A DNA stretch of 27,458 nt from a virus, in IMG/VR virus record IMGVR_UViG_3300007631_000006, positions 1-27,458 of that record; one strand, written 5' to 3'. The notes beneath the pieces are model-generated. The model saw only the letters and a list, made by a program, of their open reading frames with translations, was not told where the DNA came from and ran no database searches. How positions within the stretch are numbered: position 1 is the stretch's first letter; every line of letters starts with the position of its first letter. The translations under genes and the position numbers were made by a program. Below, piece after piece: positions 2,493-26,687 of this stretch.

Positions 2493-2861
2493 CTATGAAT
2501 CCTCTTCTTTCTCTTTCTGATCCACGATCTTTTGCGCCCACTCAACTCCGGCGTCTCCACCCCAGCCTAGCCATGCGACATGCCCGTTGTCTTTCCACGG
2601 TGTGTCTTTATACTCTGATGATATCTTTGCATTCTTCTTATGACGAGCAAAAGCGGCCATTCTTTTTACCGTGTCGTACGACAGATCTTCTCGATCAGCC
2701 AACTGATTCGCACGAATCCAACCCGTACGAGTCATAGCGGTAACCTCATCGTCACCATGCTCTTCCTTCCAGTCCAGAGCTTTCTGCGCGTTCTTAGCAG
2801 CACCCGCCGGTGGTTTGTAAGTTTCCTCTTCCTCAACGATATACTGAGCGAACGTCTTCAT
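2493..2861 (-). CDS. Capsid-targeted-like protein with KPP...AWLGWGGDAG module
   Basis: A 122-residue protein. It starts MKTFAQYIVEEEE, matching the shared N-terminal signature with I-V-E as a possible protease site. The body (about 16-115) has the order KPPAGAAKNAQKALDW, GWIRANQLADREDLSYDTVK, RMAAFARHKKN, then HVAWLGWGGDAGVEWAQKIV. I recognise this as a module found in various phage structural and prohead-associated proteins, where it reads roughly KPP-...-A.DL..G..LS..TV+RM..F..RH...-GR+AW..WGGDAG..WA. Its biochemical role is unknown to me. The C-terminus is highly charged. Confidence 0.75.
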   Translation of the reverse strand: MKTFAQYIVEEEETYKPPAGAAKNAQKALDWKEEHGDDEVTAMTRTGWIRANQLADREDLSYDTVKRMAAFARHKKNAKISSEYKDTPWKDNGHVAWLGWGGDAGVEWAQKIVDQKEKEEDS

Positions 2862-2877
2862 AGTTATGCGATTCCTA

Positions 2878-3114
2878 TTATCCGAACTCGTGGCCAGCGA
2901 CTCGCTTCATCTGTTTCTTGAACTCAGCGAAGTCGGGTTTGTTCTTATAGAGTTTGATTGTAACCTCGTCGCGATCCTTGCCCTTGATACGCCAGTTGTA
3001 TCCGTCCTCTTTGTGCCTATCAAGAGTCGTTTTTACAACGCGACGCTCGAATCCGTCCTCCCAGGATTCGTAACCCTCTGATACTTCTTCACGAAGTTGA
3101 GAAAAACTCTTCAT
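2878..3114 (-). CDS. Small capsid-targeted-like protein, 78 aa
   Basis: It begins MKSFSQLREEVSEGYESW. This is a variant of the shared N-terminal signature, with V-S-E followed by G as the likely processing point. The remaining roughly 65 residues are basic and look like a compact alpha/beta module (GYNWRIKGKDRDEVTIKLY, then FAEFKKQMKRVAGHEFG). I recall similar short modules in marine T4-like phage proteins but no function. The ATG at 3114 lies 6 bases after the previous stop. Confidence 0.7.
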   Translation of the reverse strand: MKSFSQLREEVSEGYESWEDGFERRVVKTTLDRHKEDGYNWRIKGKDRDEVTIKLYKNKPDFAEFKKQMKRVAGHEFG

Positions 3115-3120
3115 TATTGG

Positions 3121-3540
3121 TTAATCCGTGTCCGCTCGTTCCTGCCACTCGTACGAAGTGTCATCATCTTTAATCGGACCGCCCTTGGCCCATGTACGGC
3201 AGGTACGTGCGGAGTGACACTTAAAGTGGTGCATCCAGCAGTAACCGAGTCTACCGTCATCGTCTGACGTCGGACCCGGCATACAGTCCTCCATACGTGG
3301 CGAGATATCAAAGGCGACGCAGTTGCCGCAGAGTGATTTCTTAGCCGCCTCGACCGTGGTGTCCCAGTATTCGGCTATATCCTTCCAGTAGTCACCGGGC
3401 TCGTCGACGTTGAGTGGGCCGTATTGAATATAGTCGGCCTTAATCGCCGCATCACGATTCTTCGTATTGAGCTTCACATCCTGAGTTGCGTCAGGGCACT
3501 CCATGTCCTGCTCTTTGATAAACTTAAAAAATGATTTCAT
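3121..3540 (-). CDS. HiPIP-like cysteine-rich protein with capsid-targeting-like N-terminus
   Basis: The start is placed at 3540 (MKSFFKFIKEQDMECP) rather than 14 codons upstream, because only this start gives the shared signature and it leaves just 2 bases after the previous stop. In the 139-residue product, cysteines lie at 71, 74, 86, 101, 108 and 114, in the order CGNCVAFD, EDCMPG, LGYCWMHHFKC, RTCRTWAKGGPI. The spacing C-x2-C-x11-C-x14-C with a GYC turn resembles high-potential iron-sulfur proteins (C-x2-C, later C, then GWC). The two extra cysteines could equally make a zinc site. Metal content is an inference. Confidence 0.65.
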   Translation of the reverse strand: MKSFFKFIKEQDMECPDATQDVKLNTKNRDAAIKADYIQYGPLNVDEPGDYWKDIAEYWDTTVEAAKKSLCGNCVAFDISPRMEDCMPGPTSDDDGRLGYCWMHHFKCHSARTCRTWAKGGPIKDDDTSYEWQERADTD

Positions 3541-3542
3541 TA

Positions 3543-4826
3543 CTAATCCCCAATGCCGGCTTCTTCGCGAGCACTCAGCCATGCAGCAACCGCCATTTCT
3601 CTCCGCTCCTCATTATCCTTACCTTCAAACTGAGGCGCATCAGACTTACGGAAATCCTCGATCCATTTCGACACATCGTCAGATGGTTTGAGAACCTCGG
3701 TAATGGTTGACTCGTTCTTCTCTTTGTCGCTCTTCCAGTTCTTGTCAATATAATCGTAGAATTCTTTTTCCTTCTCGCCCTCGAGTTCACCCTGTGATTT
3801 AACACCGAACTTCTTGAGTGCCTTATTAAAGAACTTGCGATAGGCATCCTTATCGCCAGACTTGGCTTCAGTCAGCGTACTCTCTCCATACATGCTCATG
3901 CCCATGGAGTAACGATCCGACTGACGAGCCTTCATCTTACGAGTCTTGCCCTTCATGTAAGAGTACAGACCTTCCATCTCGCCTTCCATCTTGGCAAGTT
4001 TGTTTTGATACCACTCGGGCATTGGGCAGCCACTATTAAGACAACGAGTGATGTCGTCAGCAGCATATTTGATAAATTGGAGCTGAGTCTGTGCCATCTC
4101 AGATGCGCCGATCGGGCCATAGTCAGGATAGTCGTAGTAACCCTCGGACAGAGTCTCCTCGTTCATGACCTGCTTGACTTCAATGTCGTCCTCGTTGTCA
4201 TCCATCCACTTGTCTGCGGCCTTCATATTACGAAACTTCTTAGTGAAGGACTTCGAGTTCATGCCCTTGACACCCTTGACCACGATCTTTTTGTTTGGAT
4301 CGATATCGTCCTCGTAGGAGGTCTGCTCGTTCATCGGCACAGTATCACCGCTATCAACGTAAAATCTGTCTTTTTTATTTGTTGAAAGATTTTTAATATT
4401 GACCCAATATCCAGGTCCAGACTGTTTTGGTCTTGATATAACTTCATGTGGTGTATCATCGCGCCCATAAAGAATTACATCGCCAGGTTTTAGATCATCT
4501 GGACCTTTTTCGGCCCTGTAATTTTCATTCTTCATTCGTTTACGAGCTTCTTCCATCGGCACGCAGTTTGGAACTTCCTTACCGTTCTTCTTTTTGGTGC
4601 CGACTTGAACGTATCCGTCCCAGCACGGGCCGTCATCCTCTTTCTTCATCGCCTTTGAGATTGCCTTACGGCGCTTCTTGAGATACTCGTCGGACGAATC
4701 AACATCACCGTCGTTATCGATATCGGCGTCTGCCTTACCGACTGGATCGAGCTTCTCCTCGCGTTTGTTATTCTTGCCGCACTTAGCCTCCTCGAGCTCG
4801 CGGCGAAATTTGAAAAAGTCAGCCAT
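3543..4826 (-). CDS. Modular virion polyprotein-like protein with several protease-like sites
   Basis: A 427-residue protein. It starts MADFFKFRRELEEAKC, a divergent member of the shared signature with L-E-E|A at 11-14. The modules are: an EF-hand/dockerin-like acidic loop (DADIDNDGDVDSSDEYLK, 33-50); CWDGYVQVGTKKK...PNCVP (68-90); an SH3-like segment (LKPGDVILYGRDDTPHEVI, 112-130); FRNMKAADKWMDDNEDD (198-214); a helical module (IGASEMAQTQLQFIKYAADD, from 239); and a basic module (YRKFFNKALKKFGVKS, 329-344). Cleavage-like sites L-S-E|G (226-229) and L-T-E|A (318-321) fall between modules. I have seen these modules in marine T4-like structural proteins. A scaffold or internal-core role is inferred. 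Confidence 0.7.
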   Translation of the reverse strand: MADFFKFRRELEEAKCGKNNKREEKLDPVGKADADIDNDGDVDSSDEYLKKRRKAISKAMKKEDDGPCWDGYVQVGTKKKNGKEVPNCVPMEEARKRMKNENYRAEKGPDDLKPGDVILYGRDDTPHEVISRPKQSGPGYWVNIKNLSTNKKDRFYVDSGDTVPMNEQTSYEDDIDPNKKIVVKGVKGMNSKSFTKKFRNMKAADKWMDDNEDDIEVKQVMNEETLSEGYYDYPDYGPIGASEMAQTQLQFIKYAADDITRCLNSGCPMPEWYQNKLAKMEGEMEGLYSYMKGKTRKMKARQSDRYSMGMSMYGESTLTEAKSGDKDAYRKFFNKALKKFGVKSQGELEGEKEKEFYDYIDKNWKSDKEKNESTITEVLKPSDDVSKWIEDFRKSDAPQFEGKDNEERREMAVAAWLSAREEAGIGD

Positions 4827-4840
4827 CGTAATTACCTTTA

Positions 4841-6307
4841 CTATGAGTTCTTGATTTTATCTTGTACGCTGTCGGGTAGCTCATCAAACAGATCTTTGTC
4901 AGCTTTCTGAGCCGTGCCTTTTCCATACGTGAGAAAACTGTTTACTCGAGCCATTGCCCACTGAGGCGCAGTTGTACCAGGACGGTGACCCTGCTTATAC
5001 GCAGCAAGGCCGCGATCGTAGACCTTCTTAAGTACACTCATCGGTGCGCCGGTCTCGTCGGACTTTTTCTTTAAGCCTTTATTCTCTGTTATAAACTCTG
5101 AGAATGTTTTCACGTCTTCTTCTCCATATATTTCTTTATATTTCTTTGTATGCTTAGACGGTTTTGTCTCTGCGTCCTCGTCACCTGGAGCCGGACCCTT
5201 TCCGCCGCCGCTCTTAAAGTATTTAGCTCGAGCCTTCTTTTCTTTATCGCTCAAACCCTTATAGTACTGCTTGGGTTGATCACCCTCGACGTCAGGAACC
5301 GCGTCCTCATCCTGCTGCTCTCGATCGTCCTCGGCCTCTTCTGCTTCGAGACGTTCTTCCTGTTCTGCTTCAATCTCATCCCTACGACGAGCATCCTCGA
5401 GCTTATCTTCGTACTCATCCTCGAGATCGTCCTTCGCGTCCTCGTATTCCTGCTGAACACGATCGACGTTCTCACCCTCGTCAAGTCTCTCGACATCGGA
5501 TAACCACTTGCGATACTTCTTACCCTCTGCCGTCTCGACGATAACGTAGTTGGCTCCGAGGAACGCGATCGCTCCGACCTCTTCTGTTTTTGTGATAACG
5601 ACCGAGTCACCCTCGTTGAATAGATCACCTGAGGCATACGCCTCACGTTCCTCGGAAACTGGTTGCAGCTGAATGTGTCTGCGAAAATCGTGCGACTCAT
5701 TCAGGCCCATGCCCTTACGTACGTCGTTAAAGAGATCCTTGGCATCACTGAATCCTGATGGCATACCCTTCATAAAGGTCTGCAGATCGTTGGCCGCGGC
5801 TGCCTGACGTAGTTTGGATGCGGACATACCGGATACACCCTCGGCATCAGGGTCGCGCTCACCGGCAGAGATAACATTTACGCCACCCTGGAAATTATAG
5901 AATCCGTGTCGGGCCTTCTTACCGTTATACATATCGGTCAACTTCTCGAACTGACCTACTCGATCTGAGCCGACGACCAAGTTGACCTGAGTGTATCCTT
6001 CTTCGTAGAGTTTGACCAGAATGTCAAAGATGTTCTTGATGTCCCTGTTCATGATAACTGACCGAGCATGCTTAGGGAACATTTTACGAATGTACTTGAC
6101 CTTTGTGCGATAGTCAAGCGGGTTCTTTTTAGAATCCTGGGACTGGGATACATAGATTCGATAGATTCCGCCAGACGCAACTCGTGCAACGGAATCAAGT
6201 AACTTACCGTGTCCAACCGTAGGTGGATTAATGCGTCCGAAGGTAAACGTGATTTCCTTCTTTGCCTCGGTAATGTACTGTGTAAACGACTTAAAGCTTT
6301 TCTGCAT
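4841..6307 (-). CDS. Nucleotidyltransferase (HxGH superfamily) with SH3-like, coiled-coil and C-terminal modules
   Basis: A 488-residue protein. After MQKSFKSFTQYITEAKKE (signature, I-T-E|A), residues 20-200 are a cytidylyl/adenylyltransferase-like domain. It has FTFGRINPPTVGHGKLL (the HxGH motif with the first His replaced by Thr), NLVVGSDR and GVSGMSASKLRQAA (equivalent of the IS-S-T-x-[IL]-R motif). Next come an SH3/KOW-like segment (FNEGDSVVITKTEEVGAI, 230-247), an L-D-E|G site near 275-278, an acidic coiled coil (281-335), a lysine-rich KGLSDKEKKARAKYFKSG module, and finally LKKVYDRGLAAYKQGHRPGT (about 426-445). A second targeting-like segment, VKTFSEFITEN, occurs at 399-409. The substrate is unknown; NMN or CTP-linked chemistry is possible. 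Confidence 0.75.
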   Translation of the reverse strand: MQKSFKSFTQYITEAKKEITFTFGRINPPTVGHGKLLDSVARVASGGIYRIYVSQSQDSKKNPLDYRTKVKYIRKMFPKHARSVIMNRDIKNIFDILVKLYEEGYTQVNLVVGSDRVGQFEKLTDMYNGKKARHGFYNFQGGVNVISAGERDPDAEGVSGMSASKLRQAAAANDLQTFMKGMPSGFSDAKDLFNDVRKGMGLNESHDFRRHIQLQPVSEEREAYASGDLFNEGDSVVITKTEEVGAIAFLGANYVIVETAEGKKYRKWLSDVERLDEGENVDRVQQEYEDAKDDLEDEYEDKLEDARRRDEIEAEQEERLEAEEAEDDREQQDEDAVPDVEGDQPKQYYKGLSDKEKKARAKYFKSGGGKGPAPGDEDAETKPSKHTKKYKEIYGEEDVKTFSEFITENKGLKKKSDETGAPMSVLKKVYDRGLAAYKQGHRPGTTAPQWAMARVNSFLTYGKGTAQKADKDLFDELPDSVQDKIKNS

Positions 6308-6332
6308 TTTTGTCCACTGTTCCCATGAGGTT

Positions 6333-6348
6333 TAGATAGTACTATCTA
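6333..6348. repeat. Perfect 16-bp palindrome in intergenic gap
   Basis: TAGATAGTACTATCTA equals its own reverse complement. It lies in the 69-base gap between the nucleotidyltransferase gene (start 6307) and the preceding gene (stop 6377). No T-run follows on either strand, so a rho-independent terminator is unlikely. It could be a dyad binding site or an RNA processing hairpin. The rest of the gap shows nothing else clear. Confidence 0.5.
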
Positions 6349-6376
6349 TCCAGCCTATAATCTATGACTTCAACAC

Positions 6377-7621
6377 CTACGCGTCGGACCATCCTTTCAA
6401 TACGTCCGGTGAGAAGTTATTATATGAGAACTCCATGCGATCGACTAGCTTCACAGCGTTATTGCTGAGGCGGTCGATGGCTACGTAGCCCTCATCACCC
6501 GTTGTTCTGTATCCGTTACGAGTACGAACAAAGGTGCTCATATCATTCAATTTGTCTAGTTTATTTATAATAATAAGTTTCGCATCAATGAGTGCCTGCT
6601 GCAGATCAAAGACTAATTTAAGGTTTTTTCGGTTCTTTTCCGAAAAGAATTCAAGAATCTCGTCACGCTTAGCGAACTGAGACGCTCGACCTTTTTCGGT
6701 CTTTCTCTTTGAGGCTTCCTTCTCGTACTTACTCTCGATCCAACGAATTAGATTGTTGACGTGGGCGGCGGTGTCCTTAATTCTCTCACCACGACGAACA
6801 TACGTGTTATTGAACTGCTCGATCATTTGAGCGAACTCTTTATTGTTCTCAATCTCTCGTAGTGTCGAACCGGAGATTCTGGAGAAGATCTTACCAGCCT
6901 TTGACAGTGCAGCGGTTACTTCTTCAGTGTCACTCTTTGTCAGAGTCGCCTTACCCGACAGATCCTTGAGACCCGCGTCCTGTAACCAGACGTTACTAGA
7001 ATTCTTAAAGTCGCGTTCGGCGTTGACATTGAACGATGAGCTCATGGACTGAAAAGAATCACCTGTGTATCGTGTATGAAACACGATCCCGATCTTAGCA
7101 GCCTTGATCTCTTTACCGGCATCTGAGTCAACGGGGACGGCGTACACAATGGTGTTGGGCTGAAAGGTATAGTACTTTGTTTCATCGATCGTATCGGTCT
7201 GAACGTCGCCTTCTCCGAACATAAAGTCGCCCTGAAAGACACCCTCGGTTACCACGCCATTGAGATACTTCAGCGCAGCCTTGAGCTTAACCGCAAGATC
7301 TCCGGATGTATCCTCATCGACCTCTGCAGGTGTCGTATAGTACTTTGGTGTCGTATTGAATACCGACTTTTTGCCAACAAAGAATTCGCCGGCCTTCTCG
7401 TTCTCCGGTGGTACGATACCACAGAATACGGCCGGAGCACCGTCCCACTTAACTGTTACATCCGTCTGAGTCGAGGTATTACCAGCTAACATGTCTCGCA
7501 GCTCGCGAAGCGCGTTGATCGACTCGCGTGTACCGCTGACGCCACCATAGATCACGGCGTCCTCGATGTGAGTCATATGAGTGTTCTTTGCCTCGGCGAG
7601 GTATGATGTAAATGAAAGCAT
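6377..7621 (-). CDS. Capsid-targeted-like protein with KWDG (ligase/capping-type) motif
   Basis: A 414-residue protein. It begins MLSFTSYLAEAKN, the shared signature with L-A-E|A. The body contains VTVKWDGAPAVFCGI (56-69), where K58-W-D60-G61 resembles motif I (KxDG) of the covalent nucleotidyltransferases (DNA/RNA ligases and capping enzymes). EGVFQGDFMFGEGDV (126-140) could be motif III-like, and AKIGIVFHTRY (175-185) motif IV-like. The C-terminal 200 residues are helical and basic (EKEASKRKTEKGRASQFAK). I know it as a conserved hypothetical of marine T4-like phages; the ligase-fold link is inferred from motif order. Its ATG overlaps the previous stop by one base (TAATG). Confidence 0.7.
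   Translation of the reverse strand: MLSFTSYLAEAKNTHMTHIEDAVIYGGVSGTRESINALRELRDMLAGNTSTQTDVTVKWDGAPAVFCGIVPPENEKAGEFFVGKKSVFNTTPKYYTTPAEVDEDTSGDLAVKLKAALKYLNGVVTEGVFQGDFMFGEGDVQTDTIDETKYYTFQPNTIVYAVPVDSDAGKEIKAAKIGIVFHTRYTGDSFQSMSSSFNVNAERDFKNSSNVWLQDAGLKDLSGKATLTKSDTEEVTAALSKAGKIFSRISGSTLREIENNKEFAQMIEQFNNTYVRRGERIKDTAAHVNNLIRWIESKYEKEASKRKTEKGRASQFAKRDEILEFFSEKNRKNLKLVFDLQQALIDAKLIIINKLDKLNDMSTFVRTRNGYRTTGDEGYVAIDRLSNNAVKLVDRMEFSYNNFSPDVLKGWSDA
6562..6569 (-). promoter_or_regulatory. Possible internal late promoter TATAAATA
   Basis: An exact TATAAATA on the minus strand lies inside the KWDG-protein gene, about 255 bases upstream of the nucleotidyltransferase start. It may be a coincidence of the local AT-rich codons for LIIINKL, or an extra late start for the two large downstream genes. 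Confidence 0.25.
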
Positions 7622-8403
7622 TATTCGAACTTCAGTGTTGGTTTTATAGTTGCCTGAGTGACGCGATCAAGACCAATGTTCTTTCTTTGTATCTTGCCGG
7701 AGAATATTACTTCACCATAGTCCTTCTTCCCCTTATCATTGTTTATAAGAATCACCTCATCACCCTCGAAGTAATTGAACGCTCGATCACCATACTTTTT
7801 TTCAATCTTTTCAAATTCTCTCGGAGCCCTCTTCTTCATTGTCTCAATCTGAGTCTTGGGGATCTCACCCGGTGCGCCCGAGAGATCGAGCTTTTCTTTT
7901 AGGTCAGCTAGCTCACCCATGATATCATCAAGTCTCACGGTCCCACCGAGTTTGAAATCATGAAAATCGCCGGCCTTTACGCGTGGTTTAACCGCTTTGA
8001 TCTCGTACTTCTTACTACCGACAACAAGATCTACACCAGCTGATGCACCACCGCCTAGTTGGCTGTTATCGAGAAGATAGTACAGTGTCGCCTCACCCGG
8101 ACCAACACCCTTTAACGGGTAGTCGTGTAGTTTAGAAAAAAGCTTCGTGTTGATTGACTTAAGCTCTCGAATCAGTGCATTAAGTTTGTCTTTGTCGACA
8201 CTAGTAAGAGTTTTTGATGTATCAAATCCTGGAAAGAAGTTCTTTGTCAGTAGATACTGAATCTCTGCCTTGTTCTCGGTCGACTCGAAATCAGATGTTT
8301 GTAGATTGAACGAAGTGACTTTCTCTGCGCGTCGAATAAAATCCATATTAAGATCATCGACAGAGATGGTTGCTTCTTTAATGTACGACTTAAACGATTT
8401 CAT
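7621..8403 (-). CDS. PD-(D/E)XK nuclease-like protein with capsid-targeting-like N-terminus
   Basis: The start is set at 8403 (MKSFKSYIKEATIS) instead of six codons upstream. It gives the full signature with I-K-E|A, and AAGAG lies 6 bases before the ATG. In the 260-residue product, GPGEATLYYLLD (102-112) supplies a helix glutamate. It is followed by SAGVDLVVGSKKYEIKAVK (121-139), in which D125 and E134-x-K136 fit the D...ExK core of the PD-(D/E)XK restriction-type nuclease fold. A lysine-rich helix and a C-terminal beta segment (FEGDEVILINNDKGKKDYGE) follow. It is the first gene after a terminator and an exact late promoter, so it opens the late block. Nuclease activity is inferred from motifs. 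Confidence 0.7.
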   Translation of the reverse strand: MKSFKSYIKEATISVDDLNMDFIRRAEKVTSFNLQTSDFESTENKAEIQYLLTKNFFPGFDTSKTLTSVDKDKLNALIRELKSINTKLFSKLHDYPLKGVGPGEATLYYLLDNSQLGGGASAGVDLVVGSKKYEIKAVKPRVKAGDFHDFKLGGTVRLDDIMGELADLKEKLDLSGAPGEIPKTQIETMKKRAPREFEKIEKKYGDRAFNYFEGDEVILINNDKGKKDYGEVIFSGKIQRKNIGLDRVTQATIKPTLKFE

Positions 8404-8435
8404 TCCTGACTCTTGTAACATAAGTTATATACTTC

Positions 8436-8443
8436 TATTTATA
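8436..8443 (-). promoter_or_regulatory. T4-type late promoter TATAAATA
   Basis: An exact TATAAATA on the minus strand ends 33 bases before the ATG at 8403 of the PD-(D/E)XK-like gene. It overlaps the AT tract of the upstream terminator. The match to the T4 late consensus and its placement at a transcription-unit boundary support it. Confidence 0.75.
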
Positions 8444-8512: not shown

Positions 8513-8935
8513 TTATAAGGAAATCAGTTGTTTATGATATCGTTCTTCGAGATCAACGGCTTCCTGTTCCCAGGGACGATTCGCATAGTCTACGGAGGTC
8601 ATGTCCTCTCCCTTCCATACCATTCGAGGACCGAGGCCGCGAATGTGCTCCTGCACCAGGTCACCACGAACGTACTGCCAGATATGAACGAGCTCGTGAA
8701 TGATCGTTCTCTCGAGTTCTTCTCCACGTAGATCGGATCGAAGTTCGATCGTGTAGTCGTCGTGATCCTCCTGAGTACAGTAACCGTCAACGGTCATATC
8801 GTGGTCAATCTCAAATCCGACCGATATCATATCGTGGTCGATGTCTTCGAACACTTTATCGGATACTTGTCTTACCACTCTTTCAATCGTATCGACGACG
8901 CGGTCGTTCTTCACATTTCCAAGTCCGATCAACAT
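8513..8935 (-). CDS. Zincin-like metalloprotease-fold protein (HELVH)
   Basis: The frame is open back to 9115, but the start at 8935 (MLIGLGNVKNDRVVDT) is preferred because it lies 16 bases after the preceding stop. The longer version would overlap that gene in a low-quality arginine-rich stretch. The 140-residue product has RTIIHELVHIWQYVRGDL, with H80-E81-x2-H84 as a zincin HExxH, and a downstream NRPWEQEAVDLE with E124 as a possible third ligand, as in SprT-like or small phage peptidases. The substrate is unknown. It is followed by a terminator. Confidence 0.7.
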   Translation of the reverse strand: MLIGLGNVKNDRVVDTIERVVRQVSDKVFEDIDHDMISVGFEIDHDMTVDGYCTQEDHDDYTIELRSDLRGEELERTIIHELVHIWQYVRGDLVQEHIRGLGPRMVWKGEDMTSVDYANRPWEQEAVDLEERYHKQLISL

Positions 8936-8951
8936 ATTGAGAAGACTCTTA

Positions 8952-9179
8952 CTACTCTTCTTCCTCTGTATCGTCTTGATGAAAATTACGCCAACTCTCC
9001 TGATTCTGGTTACAGAGTCCGACAATCTCACCGTCCTCATCGATACGAATGTATCCGACCTCAGACAGTCGAGACATGACTGCCACCGCACCCTCTGTGA
9101 AAGACGTCGATCCATAGGATAGAATCGATGCGATCCAAAGGACTCCTAGCAGCAGAATCATCCACCATTCGAGAAACAT
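8952..9179 (-). CDS. Small single-pass membrane protein, 75 aa
   Basis: The N-terminus MFLEWWMILLLGVLWIASIL (1-20) is one hydrophobic segment. It is followed by GSTSFTEGAVAVMSRLSEVG and an acidic tail ending DDTEEEE. It could be a membrane-anchored early protein or a small lipoprotein-like factor, but no lipobox cysteine follows the segment. A GATAAATA late-promoter-like octamer lies 33 bases upstream of the ATG. Unrecognised beyond its topology. Confidence 0.65.
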   Translation of the reverse strand: MFLEWWMILLLGVLWIASILSYGSTSFTEGAVAVMSRLSEVGYIRIDEDGEIVGLCNQNQESWRNFHQDDTEEEE

Positions 9180-14450: not shown

Positions 14451-15714
14451 GATTCGTTAGCTCCTTGATTGTATTCATTGCAAGTTCATTAAGATACGAG
14501 CCGTCATAGTACTCGTCCTTTAGCATTCCGTCTATATTTCTGCGTAGTTCGGAGTAGGCATCTGGATTGTTCTCAAGGAACTCGATCTTGTCGAACAGAT
14601 CCTTGGAGTCGGTCACTCGCAGGAACTCAGGACACTTGAGATTGTTCTGCTCGTCGTACTCCGGATGTAGAAAAGGAATGATACCGTAGTGTGCCATCTC
14701 CCAGAACTTAGCGGTGACCCATCCCTTCTTAATCGGAATACAAAAGGTGTACTTAACTCGTGGCAGCATTTCCTGCAGATCGTTAAACTTCTTCGGACCC
14801 TTGAATCTTGCGTCTTCACCGACTGTACGAGGATCCCACTTACCATAGATCTCAACGTTCTCCACGTGGTCGAGAATGTACTTCTTAAGCTGTGGATATC
14901 GAGACGGCAGTCCCTCGTTACAGACAACCATAAAGTCGATGTCCTTCTCACCCTTTTCTGTCGATTCCTCTTCACCGCTAAAGAATGCGTCCAGTGTCGA
15001 CGGTGTCTCGACAATCTGCTCACCCTTGGTCTTACCGATAAGAAAGATCGTCTCGACTCGCGAATACTCGCACGGTACACTGGCGTGGTCGATTTCGGTC
15101 GATCCAAACTTCTTTACACATCGATGATTTACCGTCTCGTTGTACTGCGACAGAACCTTTGACGGTCGATGCATAAGATCTCGCATCTGCGCGGGCCAGT
15201 ATCGTGGATCGTTTACGATGATACCGTACGGAATGCGAGTCTCGTTCAGATAGTCGATAACGGGTCCGGCGTACTTAGCCTGCATGAACAGAGGACTTGC
15301 CAGAGTCGTAGGATCAGTCATCTTATACATCTTACCGCGAACATTGGAAGTCGCGGTCGGACCCATAAAGAACAGACCGCAGTCCATACCAGGATCAACA
15401 TTCTCTCTCCAGTACTGGAGGTACTTAATATTTACCGCATCCTGATCAACATCGTTCTTCTTTTTATATCTATCCTTAAACTCCGACAGCTCACTCCACG
15501 GATCGACGACGTTACCGTGTCGATTGATTCGAGCACGTTCCTTGGGATCAAGGCGCGAGAAGTCGGAGGCACCGATCAGATAGAACGTAACGTTCGGATT
15601 GCGATGAATCAGATTCTCGTAGAAGATCGGAGCCTCGTTGTCTCCGCCTGTCGCTCCCCACCTCTGAGGATTAAACAGAATCGACTTTCCGACCTTACCA
15701 ATCGCACACTTCAT
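14443..15714 (-). CDS. Glycosyltransferase-like protein (GT-B style)
   Basis: A 423-residue protein. The N-terminal half has alternating beta/alpha elements (NVTFYLIGASDFSRLDPKER, DCGLFFMGPTATSN, YGIIVNDPRYWPAQ). The second half has ETIFLIGKTKG, IDFMVVCNEGLPSRYPQLKK, VENVEIYGKWDPR and FCIPIKKGWVTAKFWEMAHY followed by GIIPF. The last motif is typical of the nucleotide-sugar site of GT-B glycosyltransferases (W-x-T-x-K-x-[WF]-E...G-x-[IV]-P). It could glycosylate modified cytosine in DNA, as T4 AGT/BGT and RB69-type enzymes do, or another target. It overlaps genes on both sides (methyltransferase-like and HAD), which supports a common pathway. Confidence 0.65.
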   Translation of the reverse strand: MKCAIGKVGKSILFNPQRWGATGGDNEAPIFYENLIHRNPNVTFYLIGASDFSRLDPKERARINRHGNVVDPWSELSEFKDRYKKKNDVDQDAVNIKYLQYWRENVDPGMDCGLFFMGPTATSNVRGKMYKMTDPTTLASPLFMQAKYAGPVIDYLNETRIPYGIIVNDPRYWPAQMRDLMHRPSKVLSQYNETVNHRCVKKFGSTEIDHASVPCEYSRVETIFLIGKTKGEQIVETPSTLDAFFSGEEESTEKGEKDIDFMVVCNEGLPSRYPQLKKYILDHVENVEIYGKWDPRTVGEDARFKGPKKFNDLQEMLPRVKYTFCIPIKKGWVTAKFWEMAHYGIIPFLHPEYDEQNNLKCPEFLRVTDSKDLFDKIEFLENNPDAYSELRRNIDGMLKDEYYDGSYLNELAMNTIKELTNHE

Positions 15715-16081
15715 GATCTACCCATTCCTTAAAGTCATTTAGATTCATGGCCTTATCGTCCACGTAGTATGTATTGGCGTACGGTTTTCCGAATACCAAT
15801 TCATCGTAGGGTACGTTCCATAGATTAAGCCATCTGACCGTTACGTCCCAGACATCCCTGTGAATCTTATCGATATCACCGTCATGAGTAAGCATACGTC
15901 GAGCTGAGTGAATGATAATGTAAAAATTGTCCACACTCAGCCTATGCATACGATCGATAATATCAATGTTTGGTTTTGCCTGACCGTACTTCGTTTCAGT
16001 GTCCTTGGCCTCATGATTTGGATAACAGATCGTATCGTCAAGATCGAACACGATCACTGGTCTGTTTTTATTACCAGGCAC
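15695..16081 (-). CDS. HAD-superfamily phosphatase-like protein
   Basis: The start is set at GTG 16081, 10 bases after AAGGAG and overlapping the end of the upstream fusion gene by 11 bases. The longer open frame to 16234 is only a shadow. The 128-residue product has IVFDLDDTICYP (D13 and D15 of HAD motif I), YIIIHSARRM (motif II region) and ANTYYVDDKAMNLNDF (motif IV acidic pair). It is small and has no large cap, like phosphatases in sugar-nucleotide and capsule pathways. It probably dephosphorylates a sugar or small phosphoester made with its neighbours; the substrate is unknown. Confidence 0.78.
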   Translation of the reverse strand: MPGNKNRPVIVFDLDDTICYPNHEAKDTETKYGQAKPNIDIIDRMHRLSVDNFYIIIHSARRMLTHDGDIDKIHRDVWDVTVRWLNLWNVPYDELVFGKPYANTYYVDDKAMNLNDFKEWVDHEVCDW

Positions 16082-17576
16082 GATTAATGTACTCCTTAGC
16101 GTAGCTTGCGAATCTCTGCTGTCGTTTTTCGTCGTCAGAGTGTAACGGAATACATGACGCAAGAAGAATGATTCCACCGTCAAGAATCGTTTTGACCGGC
16201 AGATTGTATTCACGTAACTTTGAGAGAAACACACTCTTTACGATCTGATTGTGCTCGACGCCTGCGAGCATCGCATTGTATCCGTGGTAGAGATCGTGAG
16301 CAAGTTTGGCCCAATCATAAATATCGTCTCCGCGTGTCGTTCTTTTATTCGTACCGTATGCCCCACGAGGATCGATTAACTTAATCTGATCGGTGTTGTA
16401 GTTGTACAATATATTGCCAGAGTGTAGATCACCGTGTACGGTCTCGATAGGACGAGTCCTCTGAGCGACCTTGAGTGCCTGAACGGTAAACGCATTCTGA
16501 TGTGAACCGACAAAGAAATTGTCGCACTGCGACATGCGATTCCATGTCTTATTGTACCACATCATCTTTGCCTCGTCGGAGAAACATCGAATAAACTCAG
16601 AGTCTTTACAAGTATCATTAAAGTGATTAAGCTTGATACGAAATACTTTATCGATAATATATTCCCAGGTTGCCTGCGTCAGATTCTCGTAGAGCATAAG
16701 ATCTGACAGAAGTATGCCCGACTCAAAAGACATACAAAGTTCGTATGAACTGGCATTATCAAATACACGAGGAACAAAACACTCCTGTGTAGGAGAAAGA
16801 CTTGAGTACCAAGAGATCTCAGATCTCAGCGTGTCCATCGATGACCGATCATGATAGTCTGGAGTCTTAGTAATTGTCCCAAGATCGTGATTGTACGACA
16901 GATTATTAAAAGCACGAGCCTTACGATTTAGAAGTGCGGCTGACGTCTGATGATACGTATTTAGTTGACCAATATCGTACCACTGATTAGTCATGACACG
17001 ATCAAACTCACCGTACATCTCTAGAAACTCAGAGATCTCTGGCCCCTTCTTACACCAGGACATTGCCGTGTCGGCCTGCTGTCCGTCAGAAAAAGAATAG
17101 AGACCAACGAGCGCAACGCCGTTATCGATGGTTCGATTCGGTTTGTTATAGAACTCCTTTCCGTCCCACATACACCAACTCGAGTGATCATCGACGTTCT
17201 TGCAGAGAAGAAAATCCGTACCCAGGTCAAGATCATCGTCAAGAATAATGGCATCACCCAGCCATACGACTAACGGAAGAGACTTTTCTTCAAGTAGACT
17301 CATACCGAGTTCGATCGCAAATCTTGGGCCGTTAAGCTCTTCCTGACGAACGAACTTAACCTTCGGATGTTTCTTTGCGCAGTAGAGACGCGTGTCATCG
17401 AGAGCACCATCAACCACAACGATCTCGTTAATATCAGCTAGCTTATACGCCTGCTCAAGAATATAGTCGATCGTCGGCTTGCCATTGACTCGAACCATTA
17501 CCTTGGACGTATTTGACGTAAGTGGTCGTAACCGTGTGGCCTCACCGGCAGCAGGAATAATAAGATTAATCGCCAT
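16071..17576 (-). CDS. Fusion of sugar/choline-type nucleotidyltransferase and APH-like kinase
   Basis: A 501-residue fusion. Residues 1-225 are a GT-A-fold nucleotidyltransferase: IIPAAGEATRLRPLTSNTSK (the GxGxRxxP-type signature with E in place of the second Gly), VRVNGKPTIDYIL, LGDAI with D108 as metal ligand, and QWYDIGQLNTYHQ. Residues 250-501 are an aminoglycoside/choline-kinase-like domain with ETVHGDLHSGNILY (H381-G-D383, N388) and KLIDPRGAYG (D402). The logic is phosphorylate, then activate with NTP, as in LicA plus LicC, or activation of a sugar by a kinase and a pyrophosphorylase. AAGGAG lies 8 bases before the ATG. It probably feeds the glycosyltransferase. Confidence 0.82.
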   Translation of the reverse strand: MAINLIIPAAGEATRLRPLTSNTSKVMVRVNGKPTIDYILEQAYKLADINEIVVVDGALDDTRLYCAKKHPKVKFVRQEELNGPRFAIELGMSLLEEKSLPLVVWLGDAIILDDDLDLGTDFLLCKNVDDHSSWCMWDGKEFYNKPNRTIDNGVALVGLYSFSDGQQADTAMSWCKKGPEISEFLEMYGEFDRVMTNQWYDIGQLNTYHQTSAALLNRKARAFNNLSYNHDLGTITKTPDYHDRSSMDTLRSEISWYSSLSPTQECFVPRVFDNASSYELCMSFESGILLSDLMLYENLTQATWEYIIDKVFRIKLNHFNDTCKDSEFIRCFSDEAKMMWYNKTWNRMSQCDNFFVGSHQNAFTVQALKVAQRTRPIETVHGDLHSGNILYNYNTDQIKLIDPRGAYGTNKRTTRGDDIYDWAKLAHDLYHGYNAMLAGVEHNQIVKSVFLSKLREYNLPVKTILDGGIILLASCIPLHSDDEKRQQRFASYAKEYINRAW

Positions 17577-26028: not shown

Positions 26029-26036
26029 TATAAATA
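26029..26036 (+). promoter_or_regulatory. Late promoter TATAAATA for the homing endonuclease
   Basis: An exact TATAAATA on the plus strand, 58 bases before the endonuclease ATG at 26094. Freestanding endonucleases in T4 are often under late promoters. It pairs with the opposite-strand copy 13 bases away. Confidence 0.6.
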
Positions 26037-26093
26037 GATATGGATCGCGAGGTTGCAGCCTCCATCCATTCTAACACTATAGGGAGTGCCAGC

Positions 26094-26687
26094 ATGTCTA
26101 TTTATCATATCATTTATAAGACTACCAATATTATTAACGGTAAGTGGTATATTGGTGTCCATTCCACAGATGACTTAAACGACGGATACCTTGGGTCTGG
26201 AGTCAGATTATTACAATCAGTGAGTAAATATGGTGAAGAAAACTTCACCAGAGAAATACTATACTTTTTTGATACAAGAGAAGCTGCATTTAATAAAGAA
26301 AAAGAAATCATAACAGAAGATATAGTTAATGATCGTCAATCATATAATATGTGTATTGGTGGCAATGGCGGTGTAGGCAAGTTAATACCTACGGATGAAA
26401 CTCGACATAAAATGTCAGAAACTAGGAAAAAATTACCACCGCCCGGTTTAGACAAAAAATATAAACCAGCATCAGAAGAAAGAAAACAGAAGATGCGTGA
26501 ATACATGCTAGCAAATCCAACAAAAGGCATGTTAGGCAAAACTCAATCTGAAGAGACACGCAAAAGGATGAGCAAAGCTGCTAAAACCAGACCACATGCT
26601 ACATGCCCAAAATGTGGTTGGTCAGGTCAGAAACAGTCAGTGTCAAGATACCATGGATTAGATGGTTCTAGGTGCGACCGCCTTTGA
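26094..26687 (+). CDS. GIY-YIG homing endonuclease (Seg-like)
   Basis: The only plus-strand gene. The start is set at 26094 (MSIYHIIYKTTNIINGKWYI) with AGGGAG about 7 bases upstream; the frame extends to 26040 without a better start. The 197-residue product has the GIY-YIG core (IIY at 6-8, KWYIG at 17-21, R38, E70), three NUMOD3-like DNA-binding repeats (DETRHKMSETRKK, SEERKQKMREYM, SEETRKRMSKAAK), and a C-terminal zinc-finger-like CPKCGWSG...H...C. It makes a site-specific cut to promote its own copying. Its 3' end overlaps the convergent gene 62 by 20 bases, so the two ends must move together. Confidence 0.92.
   Translation: MSIYHIIYKTTNIINGKWYIGVHSTDDLNDGYLGSGVRLLQSVSKYGEENFTREILYFFDTREAAFNKEKEIITEDIVNDRQSYNMCIGGNGGVGKLIPTDETRHKMSETRKKLPPPGLDKKYKPASEERKQKMREYMLANPTKGMLGKTQSEETRKRMSKAAKTRPHATCPKCGWSGQKQSVSRYHGLDGSRCDRL

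Follow-up and report, generated by a model that had tools for sequence, protein, structure and literature searches.

Head-packaged proteins in T4 and related systems

In bacteriophage T4, the cargo proteins IPI, IPII, IPIII, and Alt carry a 10-residue capsid targeting sequence (CTS) with aromatic residues at positions 4 and 7, an aliphatic residue at position 8, and a glutamate at position 10, and are processed by gp21, whose cut rule is L/I-x-E (PMC9026906). Positions 4 and 7 are required for targeting, positions 8 and 10 govern processing, and an aspartate at position 10 blocks it (PMC9026906). Here, we compare these rules with an IMG/VR fragment of 27.5 kb (IMGVR_UViG_3300007631_000006, 27,458 nucleotides; hereafter the window, to whose positions all coordinates refer), in which two minus-strand open reading frames (ORFs) encode proteins of 488 and 427 residues that a preliminary description had likened to polyproteins with internal protease-like sites. 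The window belongs to a marine T4-like phage that is closely related to Kyanoviridae, among them Phage C48C1, Methylophilales phage Melnitz, and Pelagibacter phage HTVC008M, and it encodes UvsX, a DnaB-type helicase, ThyX, and a DNA polymerase. Late expression, as predicted from promoter sequences, is a further trait shared with the T4 cargo, and the protease family occurs in relatives of the window phage. T4 cargo, however, has a single N-terminal CTS (with an additional C-terminal cut in Alt), whereas the window contains a second complete CTS inside a chain, at the seam of a gene fusion. The window proteins are best read as an extension of the T4 CTS/gp21 system in which this internal CTS is the new element; the limited set of literature searched yielded no earlier account of CTS seams within a chain.

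Other systems resemble the window proteins in part. The T4 scaffold proteins gp22, gp67, and gp68 are prohead proteins that gp21 cuts at several L/I-x-E sites, but their fragments are core debris and mostly expelled, whereas the window proteins would give rise to folded cargo domains, for which stand-alone homologues exist. In phiKZ, 201phi2-1, and SPN3US, gp21-like processing cuts many head proteins after x-x-E, with extra sites in the propeptides, and the N-terminal fragment of SPN3US gp47 remains in the head (PMC5694885). These phages differ in their S/A-x-E or A-x-E motif and their long propeptides, and no internal CTS repeats were found described for them in the literature consulted. The polyvalent proteins of phages and conjugative elements are likewise multi-domain, are thought to enter the host with the DNA, and have been likened to polyproteins (PMC5512222). 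Their release is ascribed to embedded peptidase domains, which the window proteins lack, so that an external prohead protease together with CTS tags would have to act. Finally, the cyanophage protein T4-GC190, a putative cytidylyltransferase with an orthologous enzyme domain, was detected in S-SM1 virions (PMC3037559), by which the literature makes an orthologue of the 488-residue protein a virion protein. The S-BM3 gene annotated T4-GC_190 shows 48% identity to the 488-residue protein; unlike the latter, it has neither the DUF5824 half nor the second CTS.

A second targeting sequence at a gene-fusion seam

The features of the 488-residue protein are listed below (a slash marks the predicted cut; AF2, AlphaFold2; pLDDT, predicted local distance difference test score).

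4841..6307, minus strand: 488-residue ORF, composed of a CTS, an NMNAT-like nucleotidylyltransferase, a small beta module, an acidic helix, and a DUF5824 domain that a second CTS divides (E values 4e-18 for DUF5824 and 2e-4 for CTP_transf_like; AF2 pLDDT 76.6)
6266..6307, minus strand: N-terminal CTS MQKSFKSFTQYITE/A, residues 1-14 (26.1 bits, the top CTS score in three proteomes)
5699..6256, minus strand: NMNAT/NadD-like nucleotidylyltransferase domain, residues 18-203, motifs PPTVGH and SASKLR (invariant or nearly so in A4; best Foldseek matches NaMN/NMN adenylyltransferases, E 1e-4)
5693..5704, minus strand: LNE/S, residues 202-205, at the end of the enzyme domain ([LIV]xE kept in 26/26 orthologues; residues 210-216 with pLDDT < 50)
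5486..5650, minus strand: small beta-rich module, residues about 220-274, also present in other phage proteins (strands in the AF2 model; phrog_4808 and phrog_22379 matches)
5474..5485, minus strand: LDE/G, residues 275-278, cleavage-like site at a module end ([LI]xE/A or /G common to most close relatives)
4892..5275, minus strand: DUF5824, residues 345-472, interrupted by the second CTS (profile match)
5122..5125, minus strand: GGAG 8 nt upstream of the V399 GTG codon, possible internal start (sequence)
5081..5113, minus strand: internal CTS VKTFSEFITE/N, residues 399-409, at the gene-fusion seam (20.9 bits; stand-alone homologues begin here; overlaps the low-confidence stretch 394-404)

CTSs were scored with a position-specific matrix built from the N-terminal tags of other phages, with which the proteomes of the window phage, C48C1, and HTVC008M were scanned. 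KTFSEFITEN reached 20.9 bits and ranked fifth among all positions in the three proteomes, the four higher ones being true N-terminal tags, and none of 1.94 million shuffled positions scored as high. The preliminary description was therefore right in calling VKTFSEFITEN a complete second targeting segment. A plain regular expression for internal CTSs had been dropped, as its internal matches were near chance.

The junction before DUF5824 is found in three states among relatives. In the first, the two parts are separate genes and the second opens with a CTS (MIKFSQYITENEGLKNK directly after ...MFGDD-stop in L126; MKSFNNFIKED in L074; MITFKKYLEEK in C48C1). In the second, the parts are fused and the full tag is kept, as in the window, L160 (VHTFKQFVTEA), L069 (MKSFSEYNETLDED), and L141 (LTFEDFMVEA). 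In the third, the fusion retains only the tail of the tag (QLDE/K in L002, LSE/N in L062). In the fusions of HTVC008M and Melnitz, the seam reads IEIDE/T and QLDE/K, respectively. Because DUF5824 is a separate gene starting at a CTS in relatives, the 488-residue protein is explained by two CTS-tagged cargo genes having fused in frame, and we regard such a fusion with retention of the second CTS as nearly certain. The tree built on the enzyme domain puts the window in a set of 41 rows, 27 of which are fused with a CTS, although these counts are approximate, as the first fused/split calls overlooked variants such as GHKPGTT and some rows were re-read by hand. Between the window and its nearest full-length relatives, the distance is 0.66-0.84 substitutions per site. 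Since many of these fusions lack a start codon at the tag, the tag is kept as a peptide and not as a start.

The seam also bears on processing. In 35 of 44 non-redundant fusions (10.8 in shuffles), [LIV]xE occurs no more than 11 residues from the DUF5824 helix, and it is present at the seam in 20 of the 26 fusions from which the aromatic half for targeting is gone (7.2 in shuffles), whereas [LIV]xD, [LIV]xK, and [LIV]xxE showed no significant enrichment at the seams of the 44 fusions. This retention of one half fits the T4 rules, in which positions 4/7 target and positions 8/10 govern processing. It is also what polyprotein processing would predict, because one N-terminal tag suffices for targeting and only the cut site is needed at the seam.

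At its N-terminus, the 488-residue protein shows the pattern of T4-type CTS cargo, for which a propeptide of about 10-20 residues is typical, with aromatics at positions 4 and 7 and L/I-x-E at positions 8-10. Among 97 orthologues of this enzyme, F occupies position 4 in 95 and Y or F position 7 in all 97, followed by I/L/V, any residue, and E; the residue after this E is E in 41, A in 24, S in 16, N in eight, D in four, Q in three, and K in one. By fold, the first domain is predicted to be an NMNAT/NadD-type adenylyltransferase, in which PPTVGH and MSASKLR (T/HxGH and SxSxxR nucleotide-binding motifs) are intact; a profile search of PDB sequences with the alignment of the 488-residue protein gave no match. 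The preliminary description had named burial in folded domains as an argument against the sites, but the AF2 model (26 sequences) places residues 204, 277, and 408 at domain ends or beside low-confidence linkers (210-216 and 394-404, pLDDT < 50). The modeled protein thus resembles a polyprotein, with folded units that would be joined by exposed candidate cleavage sites. At the position of LDE/G, the gene ends in L090, L121, L125, L129, and S-BM3.

A mosaic of small modules

The second protein is composed of the following parts.

3543..4826, minus strand: 427-residue mosaic ORF (phrog matches; modules common to relatives)
4788..4826, minus strand: N-terminal CTS-like segment MADFFKFRRELEE/A, weak and non-canonical (3.6 bits only)
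4638..4739, minus strand: acidic DIDNDGDVDSSDEYLKKRRKA module, residues 30-63 (matches phrog_4359, 38880, 3326, 22379, and 9737)
4557..4631, minus strand: CWDGYVQVGTKKKNGKEVPNCVP module, residues 66-90 (other phages have it in unrelated proteins, with up to 78% identity)
4140..4151, minus strand: LSE/G, residues 226-229, before the TQLQFIKYAAD module (LLGE/A at the same place in L007)
3927..4124, minus strand: helical module ASEMAQTQLQF...PEWYQNKLAK, residues about 235-300 (homologous in L007, L008, and L218)
3864..3875, minus strand: LTE/A, residues 318-321, before module e (boundary motif in homologues)
3720..3863, minus strand: module e, SGDKDAYRKFFNKALKKFGVKS...DYIDKNWK, residues 322-369 (homologues elsewhere)
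3693..3704, minus strand: ITE/V, residues 375-378, before the last module (ISE/K in L007, VTE/A in L048)
3546..3692, minus strand: C-terminal module DDVSKWIEDFRKSDAPQF..., residues 379-427 (homologous in L007 and L048)

The 427-residue protein reads as small mobile modules strung together, with LxE-type motifs where they join, and its individual cut sites are plausible candidates. Its co-linear relative in L007 opens with MADFFSFYNRLNE/K and has kept only the L-x-E end of the tag. Around module e, [LI]xE[AGS] stands at the boundary in 14 of 51 non-redundant homologues, compared with 7% of other 18-mers, and in L241 the module is a stand-alone gene of 67 residues with its own CTS (MKPFKQYMNE/ASADK...). 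Together with the stand-alone CTS-DUF5824 genes, this CTS-module e gene shows that such units also exist as separate genes, as would be expected of polyprotein parts. A pattern scan returned one relative for the module at 235-300 and no confirmed relative for the last module, and a single-sequence AF2 model of the protein was uninformative (pLDDT 42).

All sites that the preliminary description had listed are present, namely LEE/A (11-14), LSE/G, and LTE/A in the 427-residue protein and ITE/A (12-15), LDE/G, and VKTFSEFITEN in the 488-residue protein, while LNE/S and ITE/V had been missed. Their placement between modules holds for LSE/G, LTE/A, and LDE/G, which lie on boundaries of mobile modules, but ITE/A is an ordinary N-terminal CTS site, and LEE/A is probably one as well. 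As a signal of processing, the internal CTS is far beyond chance, whereas LSE/G, LTE/A, and LDE/G are not CTSs and their number is what chance would give (four internal [LI]xE[AGS] seen in the cargo proteins of the window, 3.0 expected). The LxE/A, G, or S count in the window's own cargo is therefore not used as support.

Frequency of internal tags and cut motifs

Among 1799 non-redundant ORFs, internal CTSs of at least 15 bits occurred nine times versus none in shuffled sequences, those of at least 13 bits 14 times versus two, and those of at least 11 bits 25 times versus six. For most of these matches, a homologue exists whose counterpart of the downstream part lies near the N-terminus and is usually led by a CTS (DUF5824, KFPKKLV, CWDGY, and RIPRKKGQ families), so at least three cargo families besides DUF5824 carry the same kind of predicted internal CTS. 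A few matches are doubtful, since L005_1713 resembles a wrongly chosen start and the match in L002 falls within a conserved domain. Apart from this, 61 further non-redundant ORFs of the IMG/VR loci open with a strict CTS, including P-loop kinase-like (MSLVVSFNDYICEGAEDPAIFKAVFL) and HAD-like (MKSFKQYLQEAAGMGLTVFDIDDTLF) proteins, and by this tag they are likely a broad set of packaged proteins.

In 119 non-redundant mosaic proteins, the cut motif was found 2.31 times as often as in shuffled sequences and was 1.66-fold enriched near module starts, and distinct motif contexts gave 1.5 times compared with 0.5-0.7 for controls. Reversed, D, and spacing-shifted control motifs gave 0.69-1.07 times overall and the K control 1.42. 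The excess is only moderate, because non-mosaic ORFs of the same loci already reach 1.54. Since counts in the window are at chance and the 119 mosaic proteins are enriched, the short sites gain weight only through relatives.

Proposed processing and alternative explanations

We propose that the cargo genes belong to a late-expressed run in which each N-terminal CTS would bring its protein into the scaffold core of the prohead. In the origin suggested for the 488-residue protein, the gene of an NMNAT-like enzyme and a small gene for the DUF5824 helix would have been joined in frame, with the whole CTS of the second gene kept at the seam. A gp21-type prohead protease would most likely remove the N-terminal CTS and cut at the seam, and less surely at the other module joints, so that a single precursor could supply the head, and after it the next host, with several separate polypeptides. 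We assign a probability of about 0.58 to this reading of the proteins as multi-cargo precursors that are probably cut by a gp21-type protease. Its parts differ in strength. Packaging into the head is highly probable, and the view of the preliminary description that these are prohead-targeted cargo is supported. The pattern turns up again in relatives, where fusion seams retain the half of the tag that governs cutting. Protease release of separate chains is somewhat favored; cleavage, the release, and the ejection into the host are what we infer beyond the computed results. For a general polyprotein-style packaging in marine T4-like phages, in which repeated CTS-cargo fusions would be cut at retained CTS/LxE seams and the products injected together in a fixed ratio, we consider the chances even. 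No protease gene was found in the 27-kb fragment, where the control search was likewise silent. C48C1 and HTVC008M carry Peptidase_S77, from which it follows that the processing machinery exists in the group, and C48C1 also encodes a gp22-type scaffold and a gp23 capsid protein.

Several observations weigh against such processing. The fused relatives share descent, and the seam counts are thus not independent. Besides the chance-level count in the window, internal [LI]xE[AGS] is also at chance in the clusters of C48C1 and HTVC008M, three of the five named short sites have a negative CTS score, and the values for non-mosaic ORFs and for the K control count on the same side. The seam glutamate could cap the DUF5824 helix. 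Moreover, the residue after the cut at the window seam is N and not A/G/S, yet N also follows the tag in the eight N-terminal CTSs mentioned above.

The strongest alternative, although we consider it doubtful, is that only the N-terminal CTS is removed and the chain is packaged whole, with the internal CTS as a relic of fusion and its E as a helix cap. The N-terminal CTS is indeed universal in the orthologues, a recent fusion would retain a relic, and some fusions have neither CTS nor LxE at the seam (e.g., L021, L045, L049, and L198). However, the CTS pattern persists in divergent fused relatives, including lineages without a start codon there, and where the targeting half was lost, [LIV]xE was kept and [LIV]xD was not. 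Aspartate also caps helices well.

It is very unlikely that V399 is an internal in-frame GTG start, so that translation instead of proteolysis would yield two products, the full-length protein and a separate CTS-DUF5824 protein. This idea is attractive for the window, where the GTG has its GGAG upstream (as in L005); GTG or ATG occurs at this position in some other fusions, and a second internal start is known in T4 gp21 (PMC9026906). It fails for most fused relatives, in which the codon is CAT, TAT, CTA, or similar and the CTS is still kept; in addition, the GGAG derives from conserved Gly-Glu codons, and several cargo genes here have no clear ribosome-binding site. The notion that chance accounts for the short LxE motifs of acidic linkers, so that only N-terminal CTSs and ordinary domain shuffling matter, agrees with the chance-level counts in the window and the two isolate clusters and with the background ratio of 1.54, but it is hardly credible given the enrichment in the 119 mosaic proteins and at module starts, control motifs (reversed, D, and spacing-shifted) at or below about 1, the excess of distinct contexts, and the internal CTS itself.

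If cleavage of multi-cargo precursors is confirmed, the T4 packaging tag would serve precursors with several parts as well as single proteins, which would explain why small shared modules are strung together in many functionally unassigned genes of marine T4-like phages. Head-packed and probably host-injected proteins could then be flagged by a sequence rule, an F-x-x-[YF]-[ILV]-x-E segment at the N-terminus or within the chain. The result would also bear on delivery tools that load proteins via the T4 CTS.

Neighboring genes and further observations

Both proteins are encoded in a run of seven minus-strand genes (8403..2493), which mostly open with a CTS-like segment. In order, the starts are MKSFKSYIKE/A, MLSFTSYLAE/A, MQKSFKSFTQYITE/A (488 residues), MADFFKFRRELEE/A (427 residues), MKSFFKFIKE/Q, MKSFSQLREEVSE/G, and MKTFAQYIVE/E. 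The remaining genes and the promoters are located as follows.

7621..8403, minus strand: CTS cargo gene, MKSFKSYIKE/A, start at M7 of the listed ORF (22.7 bits)
6377..7621, minus strand: CTS cargo gene, MLSFTSYLAE/A, DUF6267 (E 2e-100; CTS 13.5 bits)
3121..3540, minus strand: CTS cargo gene, MKSFFKFIKE/Q, start at M15 of the listed ORF (12.6 bits)
2878..3114, minus strand: gene with weaker CTS-like start MKSFSQLREEVSE/G (6.9 bits)
2493..2861, minus strand: CTS cargo gene, MKTFAQYIVE/E (22.0 bits)
8436..8443, minus strand: T4-type late promoter TATAAATA upstream of the cargo cluster (five in the window, 0.67 expected)
6562..6569, minus strand: T4-type late promoter TATAAATA upstream of the 488-residue gene (sequence match)

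The promoters at the cluster and at the 488-residue gene point to late (assembly-time) expression, as for T4-type CTS cargo. In C48C1 (L213), the late promoter TATAAATA at 14694-14702 falls within the cytidyltransferase gene and precedes the CTS-DUF5824 gene, which stands alone there at 14854. For the window ORFs 3121-3582 and 7621-8421 (minus strand), the longest-ORF starts look wrong, and true starts at 3540 and 8403 are suggested because the CTS sits at M15 (MKSFFKFIKEQ) and M7 (MKSFKSYIKEA), respectively.

The CTS protein of 122 residues (2493-2861, minus strand) aligns to residues 164-269 of the 740-position profile phrog_2859 and may thus be a cargo module that forms part of a large protein elsewhere. 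DUF6267 (6377-7621) matches the first half of phrog_455 (764 positions) and the nucleotidyltransferase (4841-6307, both minus strand) the second half, which suggests that these neighboring cargo genes are fused in other phages. An SprT-like metalloprotease adjoins the cargo run at 8513-9115 on the minus strand (phrog_16532 E 4e-19; Pfam SprT-like E 4e-5, below the cut-off). Farther away, a 501-residue ORF (16071-17576, minus strand) resembles, by eye, a sugar-nucleotidyltransferase fused to a phosphotransferase-like domain, and an ORF on the opposite strand (26040-26687, plus), which has a GIY-YIG-like start (IYKTTNIINGKWYIGVHS) and is closely preceded by TATAAATA at 26029, probably encodes a homing endonuclease.

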